From Lacrimispora sphenoides (GTDB taxonomy: Bacteria; Bacillota; Clostridia; Lachnospirales; Lachnospiraceae), in the NCBI RefSeq assembly GCF_900105215.1, contig NZ_FOIP01000002.1:2046001-2110000 (forward strand): a DNA stretch of 64,000 nucleotides, read 5' to 3'. The notes under the pieces were generated by a model. The model saw nothing but the letters and a program-made list of their open reading frames with translations. It was not told the DNA's origin and ran no database searches. Below are positions 14,871-63,811 of this stretch, one piece after another; positions within the stretch are counted from its first letter, which is position 1, and every line of letters starts with the position of its first letter. A program made the translations under genes and the position numbers.

Positions 14871-16064
14871 TTATTCCTCCTGTTCTTTCCGTCCGGACTC
14901 TGTACCGGAAAACAAGCCGATAAGCTCCATTGCTCCCCGGCTCATTCCCAGTATACCGTACATCGTGGAAAATGTCACCACTTCCACCTTTCTCCCTCCT
15001 GACCAGAGAGTCATATATCCCTGGATTCTGTCCACCACCTCTTCCATAACAGGCTCTAAAATCCCTAAGCTTTTAAGGATTCCCGCGGCCTCCTCCATGG
15101 TATTGGCTGTCAGAATCTTATCTTTTAATCCGTCCCCGTCCTCTGAGAAAGGGGCAGTGCAGTCCCACAATATTTCCATGCGGCGGTCCCCATATTTGGA
15201 ATGGGTATTCGGTACACCTCCTGCAGTCTTAATCAGCTTCCCGATATGCCCTGCAAACAGGATCTGGTGAAATCCCTCCTCACCCGCCGATTGTAAAGCT
15301 TCTCCGATAAAATTGCTGCAGATCACGCCATCCTTTAAGTCAAGGCCAAGTGTTTCCTGTATAAAAGCTTCACCATAATTTCCCGGAACCAGGATTACCT
15401 GCTTCTTTCCTGATACCGCCTTCATATGTAATTCCAGACGTATGGTGGCAATCAGCGCCTCTTCACTCATGGGTTTAACGATTCCTGTTGTTCCCAGTAT
15501 AGAAAGCCCGCCTTCAATTCCCAGCCTGGAATTAAAAGTTTTCTCCGCCAGTTTTTTTCCTTCCGGCATCCAGATGGTAATTGTTAAGGAACCAACAAAG
15601 CCCGCTTCCTTTCTGGCTTCCTCCACTCCGCAAAAGATCATGTCACGGGGAACTGGATTAATGGCCGGCATGCCCACAGGACAGGATAATCCAGGTTTTG
15701 TCACCCAGCCGATCCCTTCTCCGGCAGTGAGAAAAAGAGGGTCTTTCCCCTCCTCTCCGTCTCTGCGGTAGATACCCCCGGTCTGTCCTTCTTCGTTTTT
15801 ATCAGAATATTGAACGCTGGCAAACACCATGGCCTGATGTGTTACATCCGGGTCATCTCCTGCATCCTTTTTAACAGCGCATACCGCCTTTTGCTGTCTC
15901 AGGACAACATGAAAAAGAGGAAGATCAGCCGACCTTCCTTTTGGCGTCATAAGTGTCATATGCTGTAATTCACTCCCGGTTAACAGCATGGCCGCTGCTG
16001 CTTTGGCAGCAACAGCGGCACAGGTTCCTGTTGTGAATCCGCTTCTTAATTCCTGTTTTTCCAT
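14871..16064 (-). CDS. cbiD: Cobalt-precorrin-5B C1-methyltransferase
   Basis: The 397-residue protein begins MEKQELRSGFTTGTCAAVAAKAA, the invariant N-terminus of CbiD, and contains FAGHIGKLIKTAGGVPNTHSKYGDRR. It transfers the C1 methyl group in the anaerobic pathway. An in-frame extension of about 89 codons exists upstream but runs through intergenic repeat copies, so the ATG at 16064 is preferred. The ribosome binding site is only moderate (AGGAAAG and AGGAAG close to the ATG). It is the first gene of the corrin operon and has its own promoter at 16213-16241. Confidence 0.94.
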   Translation of the reverse strand: MEKQELRSGFTTGTCAAVAAKAAAAMLLTGSELQHMTLMTPKGRSADLPLFHVVLRQQKAVCAVKKDAGDDPDVTHQAMVFASVQYSDKNEEGQTGGIYRRDGEEGKDPLFLTAGEGIGWVTKPGLSCPVGMPAINPVPRDMIFCGVEEARKEAGFVGSLTITIWMPEGKKLAEKTFNSRLGIEGGLSILGTTGIVKPMSEEALIATIRLELHMKAVSGKKQVILVPGNYGEAFIQETLGLDLKDGVICSNFIGEALQSAGEEGFHQILFAGHIGKLIKTAGGVPNTHSKYGDRRMEILWDCTAPFSEDGDGLKDKILTANTMEEAAGILKSLGILEPVMEEVVDRIQGYMTLWSGGRKVEVVTFSTMYGILGMSRGAMELIGLFSGTESGRKEQEE

Positions 16065-16078
16065 CTTCCTGCATCTTT

Positions 16079-16334
16079 CCTGCCCATTCTTTCCAGGCAT
16101 CACGGAATATCCAAAACGTATCTCCTCTTTCCCGCCAATGCTTTCTGTGCAGAGCCTGTCCCGCTTTACCGGACGTAAAGGGATACCCACAGGATATTTC
16201 CTTTTAAGGTTTATTATAAAATATTTTCTCTTACGGTGCAAGAAAATCCTGAGTTTTCTTCGTTCCTGCCCACGCTTTCCAGGCAGGGCCCACCCCGCTC
16301 TATCGGGTGTTAAGGGATACCCGCAGGTCATTTC
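16079..16334 (-). repeat. Three intergenic repeat copies (one truncated, two long form) between the SASP gene and cbiD
   Basis: Copies lie at about 16079-16114 (truncated), 16131-16201 and 16264-16334. On the minus strand the two long copies share GGAAAT..CC, GGGTATCCCTT, a GTCCGGTAAAGCGGGAC or CACCCGATAGAGCGGGGTG hairpin and a final GGAAAGC hairpin. They belong to the same family as the copies near 19.1, 31.5, 62.2 and 63.7 kb but have an extra internal hairpin. Reading through them would give a false N-terminal extension of CbiD. The cbiD promoter lies between the last two copies. Confidence 0.75.
16213..16241 (-). promoter_or_regulatory. Sigma-A-type promoter of the corrin operon
   Basis: On the minus strand TTGCAC (16236-16241), a 17-bp spacer and TATAAT (16213-16218) make a strong promoter. 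It predicts a leader of about 140 nt before cbiD. The leader holds one long and one truncated repeat copy. I see no cobalamin-riboswitch B12 box in it, and the leader is shorter than that riboswitch class usually is. Confidence 0.75.
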
Positions 16335-16556
16335 CTATACTTCTTCACCCTTTAACAGAGCTTCGTTTTTCAATTCTCTTTTTCTTTTTGTAATCAGGCC
16401 TCCGATACGGCCGCTTTCCTTTGCACTCAGACTACGCCAGCCGCTCTCTATTACCTTATCACCAAGGCCAAGCTCTGATGCAATTTCAAATTTAAGTACT
16501 TCCTCCGGCTTCATATTACGAGGATCAAATGGTTCGTTTCTCTTTCCCTTTGACAT
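16335..16556 (-). CDS. Alpha/beta-type small acid-soluble spore protein
   Basis: This 73-residue protein contains LKFEIASELGLG (about residues 21-32) and LSAKESGRIGGLITKRKREL (about 43-62), the two conserved blocks of alpha/beta SASPs. EIASE matches the germination protease cleavage region. Such proteins coat DNA in the forespore and are degraded on germination. AAGGAG precedes the ATG by ten bases. The basic N- and C-terminal extensions make it somewhat divergent from major SASPs. It shows that the organism belongs to a sporulating lineage. It stands alone between a terminator and the cbi operon; a forespore (sigma-G) promoter would be expected but was not identified. Confidence 0.8.
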   Translation of the reverse strand: MSKGKRNEPFDPRNMKPEEVLKFEIASELGLGDKVIESGWRSLSAKESGRIGGLITKRKRELKNEALLKGEEV

Positions 16557-16640
16557 ATTTTCAAATCTCCTTTTCTTAAATCTAAAGAGAGTATGCCCCC
16601 TACCAGGAGAATTAAACGTACATTCCTTCCAGTATTTTCA

Positions 16641-16688
16641 AAAAAAACAGGCTGCTGCGGAACTCTGGTCCGCTTCAGCCTGTTTTTT
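16641..16688 (-). terminator. Intrinsic terminator after the short pspC gene
   Basis: AACAGGCTG (16646-16654) pairs with CAGCCTGTT (16676-16684), extended by GCGG/CCGC. On the minus strand the stem runs into seven T; on the plus strand it runs into six T, so it could work in both directions. Confidence 0.85.
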
Positions 16689-16713
16689 AGTTTCCTGCCT
16701 TTGCAATGCCCTT

Positions 16714-16902
16714 TTATCTTCTGGGGATGATGATAGCCGCAATGAAATAGGCCACAATACCCGTGCCTGTGCAGGCCAGCACTGCCCACAAAAGCCTGAT
16801 AAGGGTAGAATCCACGTTAAAATATTCCGCAATTCCGCCACATACCCCGCAAAGCATTTTGTCCGTATCGGAACGGTATAATTTCTTCTGATTGTCTTCC
16901 AT
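16714..16902 (-). CDS. PspC-domain membrane protein (short)
   Basis: The 62-residue protein is one PspC domain: [21 protein letters not shown] followed by one membrane segment ending IAAIIIPRR. PspC proteins are small inner-membrane components linked to envelope stress. It lies 158 bp after the DUF4097 gene and is very like the 82-residue PspC protein encoded at the other end of the same module, so the two probably arose by duplication. AAAGGAG lies eight bases before its ATG. Confidence 0.88.
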
Positions 16903-16950
16903 TTGTTTATCTCCTTTCTGTTCTTTGACCTGTAAATCCTATCATTAATA

Positions 16951-16978
16951 TTATCGGAACAAAAAACACTTCCGATAA
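16951..16978. promoter_or_regulatory. Perfect 9-bp inverted repeat upstream of the short pspC
   Basis: TTATCGGAA (16951-16959) and TTCCGATAA (16970-16978) are a perfect inverted repeat with a 10-base A-rich spacer, about 50 bp upstream of the pspC start. On the minus strand a T-run lies in the loop, not after the stem. It may be an operator or a processed stem; no regulator can be named. Confidence 0.4.
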
Positions 16979-17060
16979 TCGGATGGTCGGGCTAAAAAGC
17001 AGCCCTTTTATTGAAACTTGCTTTGCAAGTTATTATAGGCTATATTATCGAAGCACTATA

Positions 17061-17963
17061 TTATAATTCATTCATAAAATCCACCTGGATCGCTCCTGTC
17101 TTACATTCCAGATCCATATCTTTTCCAGCCCCGTTATCCATCTGCTTCCTGCCCTTTAAGGCCGCGCTGCCTTCATCTCCGACCTTTACAGCTCCCATTT
17201 TGCACGAGATATCATAATTGTAATCTTCCTTTTTCCCGGCTAGTTCAAGCTTTATGGCACCGACCTGGCATACCGCCTCGACATCTCCGGAAGTCATTCC
17301 GGAAAATTCCACGGCACCGGCACTGGTTTCCACGGAAAGATTTCCCACGCTGCCGCCATTGATCTTTATGGCACCGGCCTTTGTTTCAATATTCAGTTCT
17401 TCTGCGGAAAGAGCCTGAGCCGTCATCGCCGGACCGGAACCGTCATAGCCTGAGAAACGGCTTGAATGGACTGATTTTAAGTTAACGTCGGAAAAGCGGT
17501 AATTCTTTGGAACCTGAACCGTAAAAAGCAGATCCGGACCATCCTTTCTTTTCCAGCCATCATATTCCTGAAGCTCCAAATCACCATTCTCTTCGTACAG
17601 GATAAAACAGGATTGATCTCTGTTGCAAAAAATCTTAACCTCATTTCCCTTGGGATCTTCCACAAAAACAACATTTCCTGTACGTATTACTATATCCAGA
17701 TTTTTTACTTCCTGAGAAGAAAAAATTTCCTGCCCCTTTTCTCCTAAATTAAAAACTTCCGGAACGTAAATATCATCAAAATTTACCCCTTCCCAAATAC
17801 CATCCAGAGTAACTCCCGAAATTTCCCTTTCCCATTCAATGACTCTTTGAGGGACTATATCCCGTAAATTTCCTCCCAGCACAGCGGCTACGGCTGAAAT
17901 CCCCCCGCCGATCAGGACGCAGACACTTCCGGCAATCAAACAAATCTTTACAAACCTTTTCAT
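17061..17963 (-). CDS. DUF4097-family beta-strand repeat protein, membrane anchored
   Basis: The 300-residue protein has an N-terminal membrane anchor (about residues 6-30) and then a repetitive beta-rich region with the recurring pattern N-x-x-x-x-G-A-I/V-x-x (KAGAIKINGG, SAGAVEFSG, QVGAIKLE, KMGAVKVG, KTGAIQVDF), typical of DUF4097/DUF4098 adhesin-like beta-helix domains. Molecular function is unknown; it is found with HAAS/DUF1700 membrane proteins and PadR regulators. It overlaps the DUF1700 gene by 4 bp. AAGGAG precedes the ATG. Confidence 0.85.
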   Translation of the reverse strand: MKRFVKICLIAGSVCVLIGGGISAVAAVLGGNLRDIVPQRVIEWEREISGVTLDGIWEGVNFDDIYVPEVFNLGEKGQEIFSSQEVKNLDIVIRTGNVVFVEDPKGNEVKIFCNRDQSCFILYEENGDLELQEYDGWKRKDGPDLLFTVQVPKNYRFSDVNLKSVHSSRFSGYDGSGPAMTAQALSAEELNIETKAGAIKINGGSVGNLSVETSAGAVEFSGMTSGDVEAVCQVGAIKLELAGKKEDYNYDISCKMGAVKVGDEGSAALKGRKQMDNGAGKDMDLECKTGAIQVDFMNEL

Positions 17964-18703
17964 AAACGGCCTCTCCTTCCATGTAATAACCTGCTAAGGG
18001 CATTCACACAGCTTCTGAAAAGAAATGGAAGAAAGCTCCCATAAAAAGAACCGCAGAGGGCTAGTGCAATCATTCCTAAGCCAAGGAACAGGATTCCCAA
18101 CCCTAAAAGCAGGGCTCCGCTTAAGGGATGAATCACCATGGAGACGACACTGCCCAAAATCAAACCGACCCCGGCCGCTAAAAGGGCAAAGGTCAGCGCA
18201 CCGACTCCAACAACTGCTGCCACAAGGCAGCCTAAAATTCCTCCTAACAAGCCAACAAGACCTCCTCCGATTCCCATAAGGATAGGCGAAGCTGCAATAA
18301 TTAATATGATCCATAAAACAGTTTTTACGGTACGGTTACCATCCATGCCTCTTCTTCGCCTGTTATGCTTTTTCTCCTGTCCTTCGTGACCGTATCGGCC
18401 GTCATCGGATACCTCCGGAAGATCATACCTCTTAGCCATCTGGTAATTCGGATCTTTAAACCGTTCATCCCGATAGCCAGTCTCCGTGAATTCTCCTCCA
18501 TCATCTAAATTCCCGGATATGTCCGAGCGGATAATCGCTGCGATCCGCTCAGGGCTTTCAAACTCTTTGATTACCTTTTCTTCATTTTCCTGCCCCGCTT
18601 CTTCCAGATAATCCCTGTAATATTCGATAGCCTCCGCCTTTTCTTCATCTGGAATATCTGACAGCAGATACTCCAGCTCTCTCATAAACTCATCCCTGCT
18701 CAT
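17960..18703 (-). CDS. DUF1700 / HAAS-domain membrane protein
   Basis: The 247-residue protein begins with a helical HAAS-type domain (FMRELEYLLSDIPDEEKAEA and YYRDYLEEAGQENE, about residues 5-45), then a charged linker and four or more Gly-rich hydrophobic segments (about 125-225). DUF1700 proteins are commonly encoded right after PadR-like regulators and before DUF4097 proteins, exactly as here, and are thought to form a membrane signalling or stress unit. GAGGAGG lies seven bases before the ATG. Overlaps with both neighbours (4 bp each) suggest translational coupling. Confidence 0.87.
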   Translation of the reverse strand: MSRDEFMRELEYLLSDIPDEEKAEAIEYYRDYLEEAGQENEEKVIKEFESPERIAAIIRSDISGNLDDGGEFTETGYRDERFKDPNYQMAKRYDLPEVSDDGRYGHEGQEKKHNRRRRGMDGNRTVKTVLWIILIIAASPILMGIGGGLVGLLGGILGCLVAAVVGVGALTFALLAAGVGLILGSVVSMVIHPLSGALLLGLGILFLGLGMIALALCGSFYGSFLPFLFRSCVNALSRLLHGRRGRL

Positions 18704-19020
18704 ATATGTGCCTCCTCAAAAATCCGGGATATTTTCTGGGAGTAGCCTACCCACTCACCTTTATAGAGATTCAATTGAACCCTTCCTTTTTCCGTAATCT
18801 TATAATATCTTCGGTTCCTGCCATCAAATGCCAGATCATAAACCTCCAAACACTCTTCCTTCTGCAATCTTCGGAGTACCGGATAAAGGGTTGATTCTGA
18901 AATCTCAATGACATTTCTCACATCCTGCGTGATTTTATAACCATAGGTACCCTCCTGATCCCTTGACACTATTGCAAGGACAATGGCGTCCAATAATGCT
19001 GCTCCTGTGTTAAAAACCAT
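18700..19020 (-). CDS. PadR-family transcriptional regulator
   Basis: The 106-residue protein has a winged helix-turn-helix (LDAIVLAIVSRDQEGTYGYK, TLYPVLRRLQKEECLEVY, GRNRRYYKITEKG) and a short C-terminal helix, as in the small PadR-s2 class. The ATG at 19020 was chosen because AGGAG lies seven bases before it; a ten-codon longer frame starts inside the adjacent repeat. It sits in the middle of the pspC-padR-DUF1700-DUF4097 operon and is probably its repressor, acting on two palindromes in the promoter at 19517-19555. Confidence 0.92.
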   Translation of the reverse strand: MVFNTGAALLDAIVLAIVSRDQEGTYGYKITQDVRNVIEISESTLYPVLRRLQKEECLEVYDLAFDGRNRRYYKITEKGRVQLNLYKGEWVGYSQKISRIFEEAHI

Positions 19021-19041
19021 GTGCCCACTCCTATTCTTATA

Positions 19042-19197
19042 ATTGCCCACGCTTTCTGGGCATACAGGTATACCCGAAGGGTGTATCCTTATGATTGCCC
19101 AAGCCTTCCGGGCATACAGGTATACCCGAAGGGTGTATCCTTATGATTGCTCATATTCTCCGGGTATACATGTATACCCAAAGGGTGTATTCTTAAT
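19042..19197 (-). repeat. Three tandem 52-bp intergenic repeats
   Basis: Units 19042-19093, 19094-19145 and 19146-19197 have exactly the same period of 52 bp with no spacers. The first two differ at only a few bases; the third is more diverged. On the minus strand each unit holds an ACCC-TTC-GGGT hairpin, a TATACCTGTAT stretch and a GCCC..GGGC hairpin. They lie in the transcribed gap between the 82-residue pspC gene and padR, and are related to copies at 16.1-16.3, 31.5, 62.2 and 63.7 kb. Confidence 0.9.
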
Positions 19198-19209
19198 ACT
19201 TGAACAACG

Positions 19210-19458
19210 TTATCTTATTTCATCCTTTGGCGCCTGAGGTATGATGACCGCAGCAATCACGTAAAGGACCAGGCTTCCTCCTACCAGAGAAAATCCCATG
19301 AACGAACGGAACAAATGGCGCCATGACTGAAGAAACATTAAAAGAACCCATATCAGCCTTATCATAACAGGATCCACCTGAAAATATTCTCCAATACCGC
19401 CGCATACACCACAGAGGACTCTGTTTTTTACAGACCGGTACAAACGTTTTGGTTCCAC
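19210..19458 (-). CDS. PspC-domain membrane protein (first gene of the PadR operon)
   Basis: The 82-residue protein has the PspC pattern ([35 protein letters not shown]), two hydrophobic stretches and the IIPQ ending. It resembles the 62-residue PspC protein of the same locus but has an inserted segment (RHLFRSFMGFSL) between the hydrophobic parts. It is the first gene after the PadR-type promoter and is separated from padR by three tandem repeats. A role in membrane stress response is inferred from the family. Confidence 0.87.
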   Translation of the reverse strand: MEPKRLYRSVKNRVLCGVCGGIGEYFQVDPVMIRLIWVLLMFLQSWRHLFRSFMGFSLVGGSLVLYVIAAVIIPQAPKDEIR

Positions 19459-30552: not shown

Positions 30553-31506
30553 CTAAAACTGCACAAATCCCTTAATCGGCTGAGCCGGGACCACAGACTC
30601 CGCATACAATACGGGGCCCTCTCCTTCATAATCTCTCCAGAACTCATATGCAATCTTTGCCTTGACACGGACCCATTGTTTTGTTTCCAGCTCTTTGGCT
30701 TCCCTTGCCTTGGTGACAAAGCCTAAAAAGGTCATATCATCCTCGCAGCAGGTCATTGCCATACGTCCCGGCACAAAATAATTTTTGGGGAAATCAGGAG
30801 TTTTCAAAACCATAGCGGTAAATTCCACAGTCTTTCCCTCATAACGGTCCCGTCTTTCCATACAATCAAGATACCAGATCCCATAGGCTTCCGGTGAAAT
30901 GCTCACTACGTCTGCTCCCATATCATAAGGCAGATCTTCCTCCGGGATCTCATTGACCTCTCCCTCAGAATCTTCAAATACGATCTCTCCCTTGGGGCAC
31001 ATGGCCTTTAGGGTCCGCCGGTAGCCGGATAAATCTTCGATTCCGTCGCAGCGGTTGCAAATAACCATCTCAGAATTACGGACCATGGAATACAGCAAAG
31101 GTTTCATATTGGCAGAATACAATTCAAAGGTGGACATATCGATCAGGGTAATCTGCTGATAGATTCTCCAATCATCAGGAAGCTTTAGCTCATCCAGATT
31201 CCACATTCCATTCCACTCGATTAAAACCCGCTCCGGATTATAAAGCAGTTCCAGCTCCAATAGTCTGTCAGGGTTCAGTTCCTCTATGCTTTCTATAAAC
31301 ACTCCAGCTGTCCTGGTGCGCTTTAACAGGGCCTGATCATATTCAGTTTCACCGTCTTCACAAACAATCAGCAGAGTCTTCTCGTCAGACTGAAAATAAT
31401 CCTGCTCCATTGTGAACTGAAGGAACTGGGTTTTTCCAGCTTCCAAAAATCCATTTATGAGGAATACCGGCATAAAGTCGTCTTCCATTTTACCTGTGTT
31501 GCTCAT
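30553..31506 (-). CDS. G3E (CobW-like) GTPase domain fused to a DUF1980/YcgQ-like C-terminal domain
   Basis: The 317-residue protein has a P-loop (FLINGFLEAGKTQFLQF, about residues 15-31) and a CobW-like GTPase region to about 190 (RVLIEWNGMW, MVICNRCDG). It lacks the CxCC metal motif found in canonical G3E metallochaperones. The C-terminal part (about 205-317) has NYFVPGRMAMTCCEDDM and FLGFVTKA, which resemble the OB-like C-terminal domain of YcgQ/TIGR03943 proteins; those are linked to metal homeostasis. It lies directly downstream of the His-rich CobW gene, separated by 68 bp with one repeat copy, so the two are probably co-transcribed. A metal-trafficking role is inferred. Confidence 0.75.
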   Translation of the reverse strand: MSNTGKMEDDFMPVFLINGFLEAGKTQFLQFTMEQDYFQSDEKTLLIVCEDGETEYDQALLKRTRTAGVFIESIEELNPDRLLELELLYNPERVLIEWNGMWNLDELKLPDDWRIYQQITLIDMSTFELYSANMKPLLYSMVRNSEMVICNRCDGIEDLSGYRRTLKAMCPKGEIVFEDSEGEVNEIPEEDLPYDMGADVVSISPEAYGIWYLDCMERRDRYEGKTVEFTAMVLKTPDFPKNYFVPGRMAMTCCEDDMTFLGFVTKAREAKELETKQWVRVKAKIAYEFWRDYEGEGPVLYAESVVPAQPIKGFVQF

Positions 31507-31518
31507 GGTTCCCTCTTT

Positions 31519-31567
31519 CCTGCCCTTTTTCTCAGGGCATTTAGGTATCCCTGTAAGGGGTTCCCTC
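31519..31567 (-). repeat. Single intergenic repeat copy between the two G3E GTPase genes
   Basis: On the minus strand the element reads ACCCCTTACAGGGATACC, then TGCCC...GGGCAGG, with the same hairpin order and spacing as the 52-bp units at 19.1 kb. It fills the 68-bp gap between cobW and the fusion GTPase gene and ends where the ribosome binding site of the latter begins. Confidence 0.7.
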
Positions 31568-31574
31568 CATTCTG

Positions 31575-32855
31575 TTATCTTTCAAAGGATTTCTTAAGTT
31601 CCTCTTCCTTTAAATTCGCTCCGATCACGCATACCTTTCCGGTATATTCCGGCGCTCCGTTTCGGATCTCGTATTGCTCCGGCACCAGATCAAAATAATG
31701 CCATGCACCTTTTTCTTCACCTGGAATCATCCCCTTGGCACGAAGTACATCTCCAAAGCTATCTCCGTAAGCCAGTTCATCAAGAATCTTGTCCAACTCT
31801 TCTTTGCTCATAGGCGCCACATTCTCAAGGCCCCAGCTGCTGAATACTTCATCTGCATGATGGTCATGATCATGGCCGCAGCCGCATTCCTCACCATGCT
31901 CGTGGTGGTGGTCATGATGATGGCCTCCACAGCCGCATTCTGACTCTTCGTGGTCATGATGGTGGCCTCCGCAGCCGCATTCTGACTCTTCGTGGTCATG
32001 ATGGTGGCCTCCGCAGCCGCATTCCTCACCATGCTCGTGGTGGTGGTCATGATGGTGACCTCCGCAGCCGCATTCTGATTCCTCATGGTCATGATGGTGG
32101 CCTCCGCAGCCGCATTCTGACTCCTCATGGTCATGATGGTGGCCTCCGCAGCCGCATTCTGACTCCTCATGGTCATGATGGTGGCCTCCGCAGCCGCAGC
32201 CCTCTTCCTGATGATGGCGGTGTTCTTTCAATTCTTCCATCAAATCCTCTGCCATGGTATCCGGTTTTTCTATAATCTCAAGAAGCTGTTTTCCGCTCAA
32301 TTCATCACAGGGAGTCGTTACCACAGACGCCTTTGGATTCAGCTCCCTAATGATCTGGAGTGCCTGTTCCACCTTGTCGGCTGGAGCAATATCGGTACGG
32401 CTTAATACGATAGTTCCTGCATTTTCGATCTGGTTATTGAAAAACTCTCCGAAATTCTTTCTATACATCCTGCACTTCTGCGCATCCACGATGGTGACCG
32501 CACTGTTTAAGGTCACCTCCACATCAGAAGCAACGTCAATAACCGCTTTCATCACATCAGATAGCTTTCCCACGCCTGACGGCTCAATGATCACACGGTC
32601 CGGATGGTACTTTGTCAGCACTTCCTCAAGAGATTTGCCGAAATCGCCTACCAGTGAGCAGCAGATACAGCCGGAATTCATCTCCCGGATCTCAACCCCC
32701 GCATCCTTTAAAAAACCTCCGTCAATACCGATCTCACCAAATTCATTTTCAATCAGGACAACCTGCTCTCCGGCTATGGCTTCCTGCAGCAGCTTCTTAA
32801 TAAAAGTTGTTTTCCCGGCTCCAAGGAAACCGGATATAATATCAATTTTTGTCAT
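31575..32855 (-). CDS. CobW/G3E-family GTPase metallochaperone with a His/Cys-rich repeat insert
   Basis: The 426-residue protein has Walker A GFLGAGKTTFIKKLL (residues 9-23), the metal-binding CxCC motif in GCICCSLVG (about 63-67), EPSGVGKLSDV and the guanine-recognition motif SRTD (about 152-155). Between the GTPase and the CobW C-terminal domain lies a His/Cys/Glu-rich insert (about 211-333) made of eight GCG(G)HHHDH-type modules. The C-terminal domain (about 334-426) ends normally. Such tails store or hand over zinc, nickel or cobalt. A good promoter (TTGACT-17-CACAAT) lies about 54 bp upstream. The metal is not known; zinc is plausible with znuACB nearby, cobalt with the cbi operon in the window. 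Confidence 0.88.
   Translation of the reverse strand: MTKIDIISGFLGAGKTTFIKKLLQEAIAGEQVVLIENEFGEIGIDGGFLKDAGVEIREMNSGCICCSLVGDFGKSLEEVLTKYHPDRVIIEPSGVGKLSDVMKAVIDVASDVEVTLNSAVTIVDAQKCRMYRKNFGEFFNNQIENAGTIVLSRTDIAPADKVEQALQIIRELNPKASVVTTPCDELSGKQLLEIIEKPDTMAEDLMEELKEHRHHQEEGCGCGGHHHDHEESECGCGGHHHDHEESECGCGGHHHDHEESECGCGGHHHDHHHEHGEECGCGGHHHDHEESECGCGGHHHDHEESECGCGGHHHDHHHEHGEECGCGHDHDHHADEVFSSWGLENVAPMSKEELDKILDELAYGDSFGDVLRAKGMIPGEEKGAWHYFDLVPEQYEIRNGAPEYTGKVCVIGANLKEEELKKSFER
31857..32201 (-). repeat. In-frame tandem repeat coding the His/Cys-rich insert of CobW
   Basis: The DNA repeats with a 42-bp unit (EESECGCGGHHHDH) interrupted twice by a 51-bp variant (HHEHGEECGCG...). Order: short start unit, three 42-bp units, a 51-bp unit, two 42-bp units, and a final 51-bp-type unit ending HDHDHH. 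The 42+51 block is itself duplicated. Near-identical units suggest recent expansion or contraction without loss of frame. Confidence 0.92.
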
Positions 32856-61251: not shown

Positions 61252-62109
61252 TCACAATATCTCGGAAAGGTTCTCCTTGATTTTTAACGCCACATCCGGC
61301 TTATTCATGGAATAAACATGGATGGCATTCACTCCGTTGGCGATAAGGTCAATGATCTGTTCTGTGGCATAAGCAATTCCCGCCTGCTTCATGGCTGCCG
61401 GATTATCTCCGAACCTGTCCACTATGGCCTTGAAACGGGAAGGCAGATAGGTACCTGACAGTTGGCAGCTTCGGATGATCTGCTTTACATTGGTGACAGG
61501 CATGATTCCTGCGACGACCGGAACCGTGATTCCTTTTTCCCGGATGCGGTAGAGGTAATTGTATAAAATGTTATTGTCAAAAAACATCTGGGTGGTAACG
61601 AAATCGCAGCCTGCTTCCACCTTCTGTTTTAAGTAATCCATATCAATGGTCTTGCTGACGGATTCCACATGACCTTCCGGATAGCAGGCCGCGCCAATGC
61701 AGAAATCCCCGGCTTCCTTTATCTCCCTGATCAGCTCAGAGGCGTAATGGTATTCCTTTTTAGCAGGAGCATCGGTAGGCATATCTCCCCTGAGAGCAAG
61801 CACATTTTCAATTCCAGCCTCTTTCAGTTCACCAAGAACCTGGTGTACCTTTTCTTTTGTAGAGGTTACACAGGTTAAATGAGCCAGAGCCGTCACATGA
61901 TGCTGGTGATGGAGTGCAGAAGCGATATCAACGGTATATTGGCTGGTTCCTCCGCCTGCTCCATAAGTGACGCTCATAAAAGCTGGTTTCAGCTTTGCGA
62001 TCTCTGACGCAGCCTGTTCCACTGACTCATATTTATCCTCAGTTTTGGGAGGAAACACTTCAAAGGATAGGGTTGGCTTTCCCTGGCTCAATATATCTTT
62101 AATTTTCAT
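61252..62109 (-). CDS. metF: Methylenetetrahydrofolate reductase
   Basis: The 285-residue protein begins MKIKDILSQGKPTLSFEVFPPKTEDKYE-like MetF N-terminus (LSFEVFPPK) and has VTYGAGGGT, LALRGDMPTD, CDFVTTQMFFDN and GIMPVTNVKQI. It reduces methylene-tetrahydrofolate to methyl-tetrahydrofolate, the methyl donor for MetH. It is the first gene of the metF - activation protein - metH run. GGAG lies nine bases before the ATG. Upstream lie two intergenic repeat copies; no SAM or cobalamin riboswitch was recognised. Confidence 0.95.
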   Translation of the reverse strand: MKIKDILSQGKPTLSFEVFPPKTEDKYESVEQAASEIAKLKPAFMSVTYGAGGGTSQYTVDIASALHHQHHVTALAHLTCVTSTKEKVHQVLGELKEAGIENVLALRGDMPTDAPAKKEYHYASELIREIKEAGDFCIGAACYPEGHVESVSKTIDMDYLKQKVEAGCDFVTTQMFFDNNILYNYLYRIREKGITVPVVAGIMPVTNVKQIIRSCQLSGTYLPSRFKAIVDRFGDNPAAMKQAGIAYATEQIIDLIANGVNAIHVYSMNKPDVALKIKENLSEIL

Positions 62110-62139
62110 GCTGTCTGTCTCCTATCTTTCGTTTCATCA

Positions 62140-62258
62140 TTAGCGCCTATATATTTTGGGCATAAAGGTATACCCTAAGGGTGTTTCAACATTAACGCCC
62201 ATGCACTTTGGACATAGTAGCCCTTTGGGCATAATGGCATGCCCAAAAAGCTACTTTT
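62140..62258 (-). repeat. Two intergenic repeat copies upstream of metF
   Basis: Copies at about 62140-62190 and 62191-62258. On the minus strand the first reads AAACACCCTTAGGGTATACC and then TATGCCCAAAA...GGCGC. The second is diverged and carries extra GCCC/GGGC and GGCATGCC palindromes. They belong to the 52-bp family seen at 19.1 and 63.7 kb. Confidence 0.75.
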
Positions 62259-63389: not shown

Positions 63390-63716
63390 TTATCCCAGTA
63401 CCAGATGAGCCACGGCAATCTCGTCATCCTCCCTGAATCCCTGGGCACAAACCTGTATATCATAAACATATTTCTCCTGTAGTCCGGTAATGAAAGCAAT
63501 CTCAGCAATATTCTTTCCTTCCTGAGCCAGCACCAGCACCTGATGAACATCTGCTATTGTCTTTTTCAACAACTCATCCGATAGACCGAAAGGCTCAAGG
63601 TCAGCCGCTTCTTTATCTGACTCTGTGATAAAATCTTCCAGAGACAGGCTTCTTTCATCTTCTCCGCTGTTGTAGTAATCCTCTGAAATCTCCCAATCCT
63701 GTTCTCTCTCTGACAT
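63390..63716 (-). CDS. Small acidic protein with a helix-turn-helix-like segment, function unknown
   Basis: The 108-residue protein has an acidic disordered N-terminal third (to about residue 40) and a helical C-terminal part containing EGKNIAEIAFITGLQEKYVYDI (only part shown in any one motif: NIAEIAFITGL then KYVYDIQVC), which resembles a sigma-region-4 or DNA-binding helix-turn-helix. It ends DDEIAVAHLVLG. AAGGAG precedes the ATG. It is encoded between ftsZ and the zinc-ribbon gene on the same strand and probably shares a transcript with the latter. Confidence 0.7.
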   Translation of the reverse strand: MSEREQDWEISEDYYNSGEDERSLSLEDFITESDKEAADLEPFGLSDELLKKTIADVHQVLVLAQEGKNIAEIAFITGLQEKYVYDIQVCAQGFREDDEIAVAHLVLG

Positions 63717-63730
63717 TCTGCCACTCCTTT

Positions 63731-63811
63731 CATCTTATCTGCCCATGCTTTTTGGGCATAAAGTTATACCTGTAGGGTGTTTCATCTTATCTGCCCATGC
63801 AGGGTATTTCA
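63731..63811 (-). repeat. Two intergenic repeat copies after ftsZ (one complete, one internally deleted)
   Basis: A complete copy at 63731-63782 has exactly the 52-bp length of the tandem units at 19.1 kb. A second copy (63783-63811) keeps the CATCTTATCTGCCCATGC start and the AGGGTATTTC end but has lost the middle. Same orientation as all other copies relative to the genes. Confidence 0.8.

Follow-up and report, generated by a model that had tools for sequence, protein, structure and literature searches.

A two-hairpin repeat in the window

The 64,000-nt window analysed here (C2:2046001-2110000 of the 5.93-Mb, two-contig genome of Lacrimispora sphenoides, G000) carries eleven copies of a two-hairpin repeat. 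All of them lie on the minus strand and each is oriented in the sense of its downstream gene. Three gapless units of 52 nt form an array at 19032-19192 ahead of a padR-like gene. The other copies occupy 16069-16335 (one 57-nt unit and two long forms of 81 nt), 31509-31565, 62132-62258 and 63728-63811, ahead of cbiD, a cobW-like gene, metF and a gene for a 108-aa protein without Pfam match, respectively (Table 1). The 57-nt model consensus, derived as a position-weight matrix, is GGAAACACCCTTCGGGTATACCTTTATGCCCAGAAAGCATGGGCAGAAAAGAGGAAA; the unit nearest to the padR-like gene shares 5 nt with the next one. An initial annotation of this DNA had described three gapless 52-bp units and about eleven copies including four other sites; the array and all related copies were recovered, and eleven copies were counted. 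A search of the window with the poorly chosen pattern TGCCCNNNNNNNNGTGGGCA, 2 mismatches being allowed, gave a chance-level count.

Table 1. Repeat copies and downstream genes in the window (R1 and R2, covariance models)
Feature	Position	Strand	Basis and remarks
Unit nearest to the PadR-like gene	19032..19088	-	GGATACACCC-TTC-GGGTAT..TGCCCA-loop-TGGGCA; 57-nt model span; R2, 64.3 bits
Second unit, 52 nt off the first	19084..19140	-	Position-weight matrix; R1 match G000:C2:2065089-2065140; not among the R2 matches listed
Third unit, with greater divergence (TACCC for TGCCC)	19136..19192	-	Position-weight matrix; R2, 32.6 bits
Downstream gene, PadR-like regulator (PF03551)	18700..19020	-	Pfam match
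Unit adjoining the cbiD-like gene	16069..16125	-	Position-weight matrix; R1 match
Long form of the unit, 81 nt	16121..16201	-	R2, 38.6 bits
Second long form of the unit, 81 nt	16255..16335	-	R2, 32.1 bits
Downstream gene, CbiD (PF01888)	14871..16064	-	Pfam match; ATG start at 16064 set from relatives
Single unit in the Shine-Dalgarno region of the CobW-like gene	31509..31565	-	Position-weight matrix; R2
Left copy of the duplicated target, GAGGGAA	31561..31567	-	Filled/empty comparison
Right copy of the duplicated target, GAGGGAA, then CC-ATG	31509..31515	-	Filled/empty comparison
Downstream gene, CobW-like (PF02492)	30553..31506	-	Pfam match
Unit 5' of metF	62132..62188	-	Position-weight matrix; R2
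Decayed copy upstream of the metF unit	62189..62258	-	By eye
Downstream gene, metF (TIGR00676, PF02219)	61252..62109	-	TIGR/Pfam match
Unit 5' of the gene for the 108-aa protein	63728..63784	-	Position-weight matrix; R2
Partial copy, GAAATACCCT fused to GCATGGGCAGATAAG	63786..63811	-	By eye
Downstream gene for a 108-aa protein without Pfam match	63390..63716	-	Pfam scan

Copy number and distribution

The covariance model R1 (E up to 1) identified at least 139 matches in the whole genome. They formed 108 clusters, 82 single, 21 double and 5 triple, so that 26 of 108 are tandem. As the best 150 candidates were scored, 139 is a lower bound. The second stem of R1 was set one column off, and this model therefore acts mostly as a sequence profile; the stem register is correct in R2. 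The 19-base core TGCCCNNAAAGCRTGGGCA occurred 13 times in the genome and its reversed control 0 times. The core devoid of its Shine-Dalgarno (SD) part, GGGYATMCCTNTATGYCC, which was used to rule out that the model matches were biased by their SD part, occurred 40 times against 0 for the reversed control; 39 of these 40 hits fell within listed model matches and one lay 19 nt beside such a match, all on the same strand. These counts exclude a chance origin of the repeat.

All 21 genomes of the genus that were searched carry the repeat, with 3 to 147 matches each. At the level of the family, matches were found in at least 22 of 200 genomes, own genome included (one genome per genus, best 28 candidates each), and an order-wide draw yielded at least 3 positive genomes out of 116 (best 48 candidates each), all three belonging to the family of the window. 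Because only the best candidates of each genome were scored (150, 28 or 48, depending on the search) and R2 was built from this genome alone, the copy numbers and the 22/200 genera are lower bounds. The dispersed family proposed by the initial annotation, which had advised a covariance model search of the genome and of other Lachnospiraceae, thus extends far beyond the window.

Units at C1:1171577, 1171629 and 1171681 of G014 stand 52 nt apart with equal model scores; such equal scores of neighbouring units in some genomes suggest recent tandem growth. A long form, with model matches of 77-81 nt, makes up 10 of the 129 matches above 30 bits. It was observed at 16121-16201 and 16255-16335 of the window and at C2:1005528, C2:1406388 and further sites of G000, apparently holds a further hairpin, and often shows ACA or ACG in place of the AUG of the short form. 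Carriage by phages or plasmids was considered and rejected, since viral contigs contained no exact match of one 25-base repeat pattern and plasmids gave no blastn match to the 221-base array.

Position relative to genes

For all 108 clusters, 90 surrounding regions were retrieved and genes were predicted with a simple codon-score caller. A sense start was scored when a frame with a score >10 and a length of no less than 50 aa (30 aa if open at the end) began 3-60 nt past hairpin 2. Such a start codon was present downstream in 102 of the 108 clusters, at a median of 23 nt past hairpin 2 (quartiles 17 and 25), and was ATG in 98 of the 102 genes. On the antisense side a start was seen in 5 of 108 clusters, four of which also had a sense start, and the count was the same at thresholds 10 and 15. 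The random-position control (51%) counts start codons inside genes, provides no useful null and was not relied on. Fifteen of the 17 clusters on the locally rarer strand were still sense to a gene, which indicates that orientation is set by the gene and not by replication. The end of the unit, AAGAGGAAA, is or abuts an SD-like sequence; in 100 clusters the median distance from the end of hairpin 2 was 5 nt to the first SD-like motif and 12 nt to the last one before the start. In other genera, the element ended 8-29 nt before a sense frame of at least 37 aa in 24 of 28 loci (21 genera). By eye, the downstream frames of these genera include DnaK-like starts in two genera.

The upstream neighbour was divergent in 13 clusters, and 12 of these 13 still had a sense start downstream. 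The repeat is tied to the ribosome-binding site (RBS) of the downstream gene and not to co-directional gene pairs. The initial annotation had reported that all copies lie between genes running in the same direction and in the same orientation relative to them: the orientation was confirmed by the genome-wide count, whereas the gene pairs turned out not to be a constant. This bears on an alternative in which the repeat is an intercistronic stem-loop with a role in mRNA processing or half-life. In 43 of the 90 co-directional clusters the element starts no more than 20 nt past the upstream stop codon, and stem-loops at intergenic processed sites are described for C. cellulolyticum in the cited part of PMC4423207. 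Such a role is less likely than not, given that the link to the downstream start holds after divergent neighbours too.

A coherent set of downstream genes, as expected of a metabolite riboswitch, was not seen among the proteins scanned. ClpP, which ranks first among the 102 downstream proteins, was recognised by hand, and the 50 next-best ones were scanned; 34 of these 50 were assigned to NCBIfam families (E up to 1e-25), and no metabolic theme was seen in the 50 scanned proteins. The families comprise ysxC, ytqA, pgk, aroC, addB, purF, cysS, thiI, ispF and metF as well as mutL, smc, polA, clpX, der, tsf, priA and ribF; transporters, penicillin-binding proteins and a response regulator were also found.

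RNA structure and covariation

The 74 matches with a length of exactly 57 nt, out of 129 above 30 bits, were used as an ungapped alignment (A2, 73 distinct units). In this alignment 87.2% of the cells of the two-hairpin structure were paired, and 51 stem cells had changed on both sides compared to 16.5 in shuffles, none of 500 shuffles reaching 51. The 33 matches from other genera (32 distinct, from the 28 loci above), whose alignment was fitted to the model and leans towards its structure, showed 88.3% paired cells and 42 double-change cells against 12.2 in shuffles. In these sequences the second stem varied freely, one of its pairs being C-G in 12, U-A in 12 and G-C in 5 cases. The unpaired linker was nearly constant (U in 32/33, CC in 31/33 and 30/32), and so was the AUG (A 32/33, U 33/33, G 31/31). 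In helix 2, 28 G-U pairs were counted against 10 A-C, as expected of an RNA sense strand. At clpP-clpX the stem was present in three compensated states, GCCC/GGGC, GCTC/GAGC and GTTC/GAAC. The compensatory changes that the initial annotation had recommended looking for are therefore found in both stems, and the counter-evidence it had named, random orientation, no covariation in the stems and only a few copies, did not appear.

At L229, L245 and L240, which belong to two other genera (G110 and G058), the second hairpin is shrunk to a short stem (GGCCATTCGGCC, GGCCATATGGCC), and its A-rich loop thus seems dispensable.

The constancy of the AUG, which is kept while other pairs of the same stem covary, raises the question of an upstream mini-open reading frame (mini-ORF), in which the AUG before hairpin 2 would start a leader peptide coupled to the gene and GGAAA together with hairpin 1 would form a bridged SD sequence. 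However, the stop codons of such frames lie at scattered positions between -58 and deep within the gene, each of the three reading frames is represented (30, 27 and 24), ACA or ACG stands at the AUG position in 8 of 94 elements and no conserved peptide was seen, which makes a mini-ORF improbable. Still less probable is a riboswitch-like switch between hairpins 1 and 2 and an alternative fold in which the two middle segments, GGGTAT and ATGCCC, pair with each other. Such pairing is possible in 90.2% of the cells, wobbles counted, and for the window unit at 62132-62188 it gives the minimum free energy, but 0 cells had changed on both sides, no better than in shuffles, and the unrelated downstream genes suggest no common ligand. 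In a third helix, formed by CCUUU of the linker and AGG of the SD sequence, 75.3% of the cells were paired, one pair showing a double change and two C-G pairs none; an anti-SD role of the linker (ACCUUU) might be entertained as an idea.

Filled and empty sites in relatives

Sites were classed as empty, filled or decayed by visual inspection of the sequences. Among 20 tig-clpP loci, two units were seen in G000 and G013, one in G014, G002 and G007, a diverged copy in G011 and the long form in G008, and the other 13 loci had no unit. At clpP-clpX, matrix hits were obtained at 11 of 20 loci and seven more showed a long form, a diverged copy or a remnant; G015 reads N and G012 has none. The tandem number at this locus varied from 1 to 4 units among relatives. 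Over the window region, five relatives carry the repeat at the same five genes, with model hits in 5/5 at cbiD (G008 with only 18.2 bits) and at the padR-like gene, 4/5 at the cobW-like gene (G011 empty), 3/5 at metF and 4/5 at the last gene of the window. The only match elsewhere in this region (G013, 19.8 bits) was taken for chance. Comparison with G016, a more distant genome, covered 15 loci, of which 13 were empty, one (C2:2004799) was filled and one (clpX) had decayed; G001 and G003 added filled as well as empty sites. These comparisons indicate that gains of the repeat were old and rare and that the copies were then inherited.

Four clean filled/empty pairs point to the duplication of a target of 5-7 nt. 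At C2:1981144 the target TGGAGGTAACT-ATG became GGAGGTA-element-GAGGTAACT-ATG. At position 31509 of the window, GGAGGAAATC-ATG of G003 corresponds to GAGGGAA-element-GAGGGAACC-ATG, the right side in G001 reading GAGGAAATC-ATG, and at 63728 TTTTTGAAAGGAG of G001 corresponds to TGAAA-elements-GATGAAAGGAG. At C2:2010069 the target is the start codon itself, GGTA-ATGGAAA having become ATGGAAA-element-ATGGAAA. The remaining empty sites were less clear, their left side being decayed. In 71 single copies, both flanks agreed beyond shuffles at box positions -2, -1, 0 and +2 (p 0.0007, 0.003, 0.002 and 0.014, per position), and nothing stood out at -3 or +5. Nine of 80 copies had been dropped from this test because of identity runs of at least 10 (probable tandem remnants); the same positions stood out when they were kept. 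The data fit a target duplication of about 5-7 nt, the exact length being deduced. As the SD region is duplicated, the downstream gene keeps that signal. A single crossover with a circular donor does not account for C2:1981144, where the T of the target itself stands on both sides.

Sequence change after insertion

Changes after insertion were counted in 27 sequences from six orthologous loci. The cbiD locus was left out entirely, as were G008 and G011 (empty) at 31506, G002, G011 and G013 at 62109, G008 and G011 at 63716 and, at clpP, G014 together with all empty or diverged ones; at clpX six genomes were retained. The stems and the conserved linker core showed 16 changes in 144 columns, whereas loops, variable linker and tail showed 43 in 132 (p 1.6e-5). 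Outside the test, pair 6-18 had 4 changes in 12 columns, the 5' box 6 in 24 and the 3' box 6 in 25. At clpX the divergence of the element was 0.074 compared to 0.159 at fourfold sites.

The intergenic DNA of the fetched loci, leaving out 60 nt around the elements, was further inspected for SD-like motifs. Of the GGAAA motifs 26/152 lay at an RBS, of GAGGAA 27/48 and of GGAGG 80/117, compared to 102/108 clusters of the repeat (p <1e-10 each). The address is thus not explained by target preference alone, and either insertion senses more than sequence or only the copies at RBS were retained.

These counts are important for the alternative of a purely selfish repeat preferring purine-rich, SD-like DNA, in which the asymmetric target sets the orientation, the duplication makes insertion harmless and no host function exists. 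The matching flanks and the empty sites agree with such a repeat, as do the unrelated downstream genes, the range of 3 to 147 matches among 20 relatives and the divergence at clpP, which equals that of fourfold sites (0.138 versus 0.135). However, target preference predicts more sites away from RBS than were observed, stems and core changed less than loops after insertion, and the stem states at clpX are compensated. We therefore regard a purely selfish repeat as rather unlikely.

Search for a mobilising enzyme

The genome contained two matches to PF01797, both IS200-like TnpA proteins of 156 aa differing in one residue (L169, L170), and the nearest repeat match to either of them lay at least 37 kb away. 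No PF01797 match was obtained in 5 of the 21 genomes of the genus, including G014 and G008 with 140 and 147 repeat matches. No Y1 transposase gene flanked by two inverted repeat copies was found among the PF01797 matches of the genome. The tandem units are in direct orientation with a period of about 52, and no opposite-strand neighbours within 300 nt were seen among the 139 matches, in contrast to the inverted order of bacterial interspersed mosaic elements (BIME). Target duplication, moreover, is not known from Y1 transposition and does not fit it. Hence, the spread by a repetitive extragenic palindromic (REP)-associated tyrosine transposase (RAYT) suggested in the initial annotation was not upheld: although the repeat is short, palindromic, dispersed and of high copy number, the two IS200-like enzymes, the repeat-rich genomes lacking PF01797, the direct arrangement and the matching flanks make a REP sequence moved by a RAYT hardly credible.

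A candidate mobile mRNA leader element

We consider it probable that the repeat is a small mobile element that landed on RBS and was kept as an mRNA leader acting in cis. The filled and empty sites support an orientation-fixed mobile insert whose repeated target box restores the SD sequence. Retention as an mRNA leader element is supported by orientation, covariation and the slower-changing stems, in agreement with the action in mRNA proposed by the initial annotation. The element would be small and non-autonomous, a core of about 45 nt and a duplicated target of about 5-7 nt making up the 52-nt period. It would insert in one orientation at a purine-rich SD sequence of the GA-GGAAA type and duplicate it, so that the downstream gene would retain its RBS and gain two hairpins just upstream, with hairpin 2 ending about 5-12 nt before the SD-like sequence. 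Tandem copies would arise later and be lost again. The stems and the UAUACC(N3)AUG core would be held by selection. Movement is presumably due to an enzyme. The inserted element would affect expression of the downstream gene, tuning translation initiation and/or shielding the 5' side of the mRNA, and a factor may bind the conserved linker UAUACC..AUG.

Several observations weigh against this interpretation. Regarding mobility, five relatives compared over the window region offered no convincing new site, so that movement must be rare. No mobilising enzyme or donor was found, PF01797 being the only family searched. Terminal inverted repeats were absent (4/16 at the consensus ends; mean 5.76 versus 5.81 shuffled, 74 units). 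The flank p values are uncorrected for the 30 positions tested, and no excess was seen at +1, +3 and +4, where the expectation is already 0.64, 0.85 and 0.75. Regarding the RNA, A-C mismatches in helix 1 (16) exceeded G-U pairs (10), and pair 6-18, left out of that count, is A-C in 48 of 73 units. Compared with shuffles, the 57-mers had just a modest folding advantage (z -0.5 to -2.2), the AUG had lost its G in two orthologues, gaps being outside the change count, and divergence at clpP was not lower than at fourfold sites. Finally, six of the 108 clusters had no qualifying sense start, and the start-codon position failed at four of the 28 loci in other genera (L228, L236, L237 and L241).

A further-reaching proposal, which we put forward as speculative, is that homing of the element to RBS represents a transposition-built, genome-wide post-transcriptional network with one conserved RNA-binding factor. 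The insertion machinery or an RNA intermediate would use the SD sequence as target and duplicate it, and a portable translational control module would thereby have been placed before at least 100 unrelated core genes, its expansion having taken place separately in several genera of the Lachnospiraceae. Short repeats of bacteria are commonly viewed as neutral intergenic passengers; here the address, the RBS, is sharply defined. Since the SD-like box is repeated, translation of the gene can survive each insertion, and its leader gains structured RNA. How mobile DNA can build post-transcriptional regulation may be tested directly on relatives with matching empty and filled sites.

For annotators, frames running through the repeats deserve caution. 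The listed cbiD open reading frame (14871-16331 of the window) extends through the repeats to 16331, and at L127:5777-6469 an open frame passes through repeats, MPGKHGQNIGNTL..., ahead of ClpP; automatic annotation may thus yield false N-terminal extensions. Separate direct repeats, seven copies at mostly 42-nt spacing, lie at 31867-32267 of the window within the gene 31575-32855 and are perhaps a repeated protein segment.

Comparison with known systems

The repeat resembles the RNA families of Rfam 15 in having a conserved two-hairpin structure in 5' leaders, and stem covariation across species, a feature of structured cis-regulatory RNAs, was found, the second alignment being fitted to the model. 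No Rfam 15 family reached its gathering score in the window, and a threshold of E up to 5 brought up miRNA and other unlikely families in 15900-19300. Scanning of 20 loci from other genera gave a single match, pemK, at a separate site: in L222, from another Lachnospiraceae genome, a pemK RNA (RF02913, 70.5 bits) occupies 183-246 and precedes a repeat copy by about 100 nt. In full-text literature covering few subscription journals, nothing was recognised as this repeat family.

According to the cited part of PMC4423207, the stem-loops of C. cellulolyticum are likewise intercistronic in a Clostridia genome and may set the output of each cistron, but are located at the 3' ends of upstream genes, whereas here one family is tied to the downstream start. 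REP/BIME sequences with RAYT, in the portion of PMC2817692 considered, are also palindromic and of high copy number and have a short head before a mismatched hairpin (GT(A/G)G there, GGAA here); in contrast to them, the repeat described here has no RAYT found, a direct arrangement, a repeated target box and a fixed sense orientation. BOX, RUP and SPRITE of Streptococcus pneumoniae are short interspersed repeats with low-rate movement and are called parasitic rather than specialised (PMC3049150). The length of BOX varies, and tandem modules varying in number between relatives were found here as well, at clpP-clpX. Unlike the present repeat, these families have no fixed place at start codons reported in the cited sections of PMC3049150, and the ends of BOX are stated there to resemble an insertion sequence (IS), whereas no inverted ends were found here.

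The nearest printed case are the direct TAACTGA repeats found in marine Beggiatoaceae, which share address and orientation with the present repeat but differ from it in unit and structure. As presented in the cited text of PMC4679880, they are dispersed in tandem, mostly forward, just 5' of start codons over the expected RBS, vary in number between relatives and have a suggested translational role. Their units are 7 nt long with little SD character, and most genes behind them have no obvious SD sequence; the units of the L. sphenoides repeat are 52 nt long, with two hairpins that covary and an SD-like box that is repeated. Of the features of miniature inverted-repeat transposable elements (MITE), the target-site duplication was found at the four clean sites and in the 71-copy flank test. 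As the inverted ends of MITE and the defining REP/RAYT features tested are lacking, we place the repeat among the small mobile intergenic repeats with RNA structure, as a new variant thereof.
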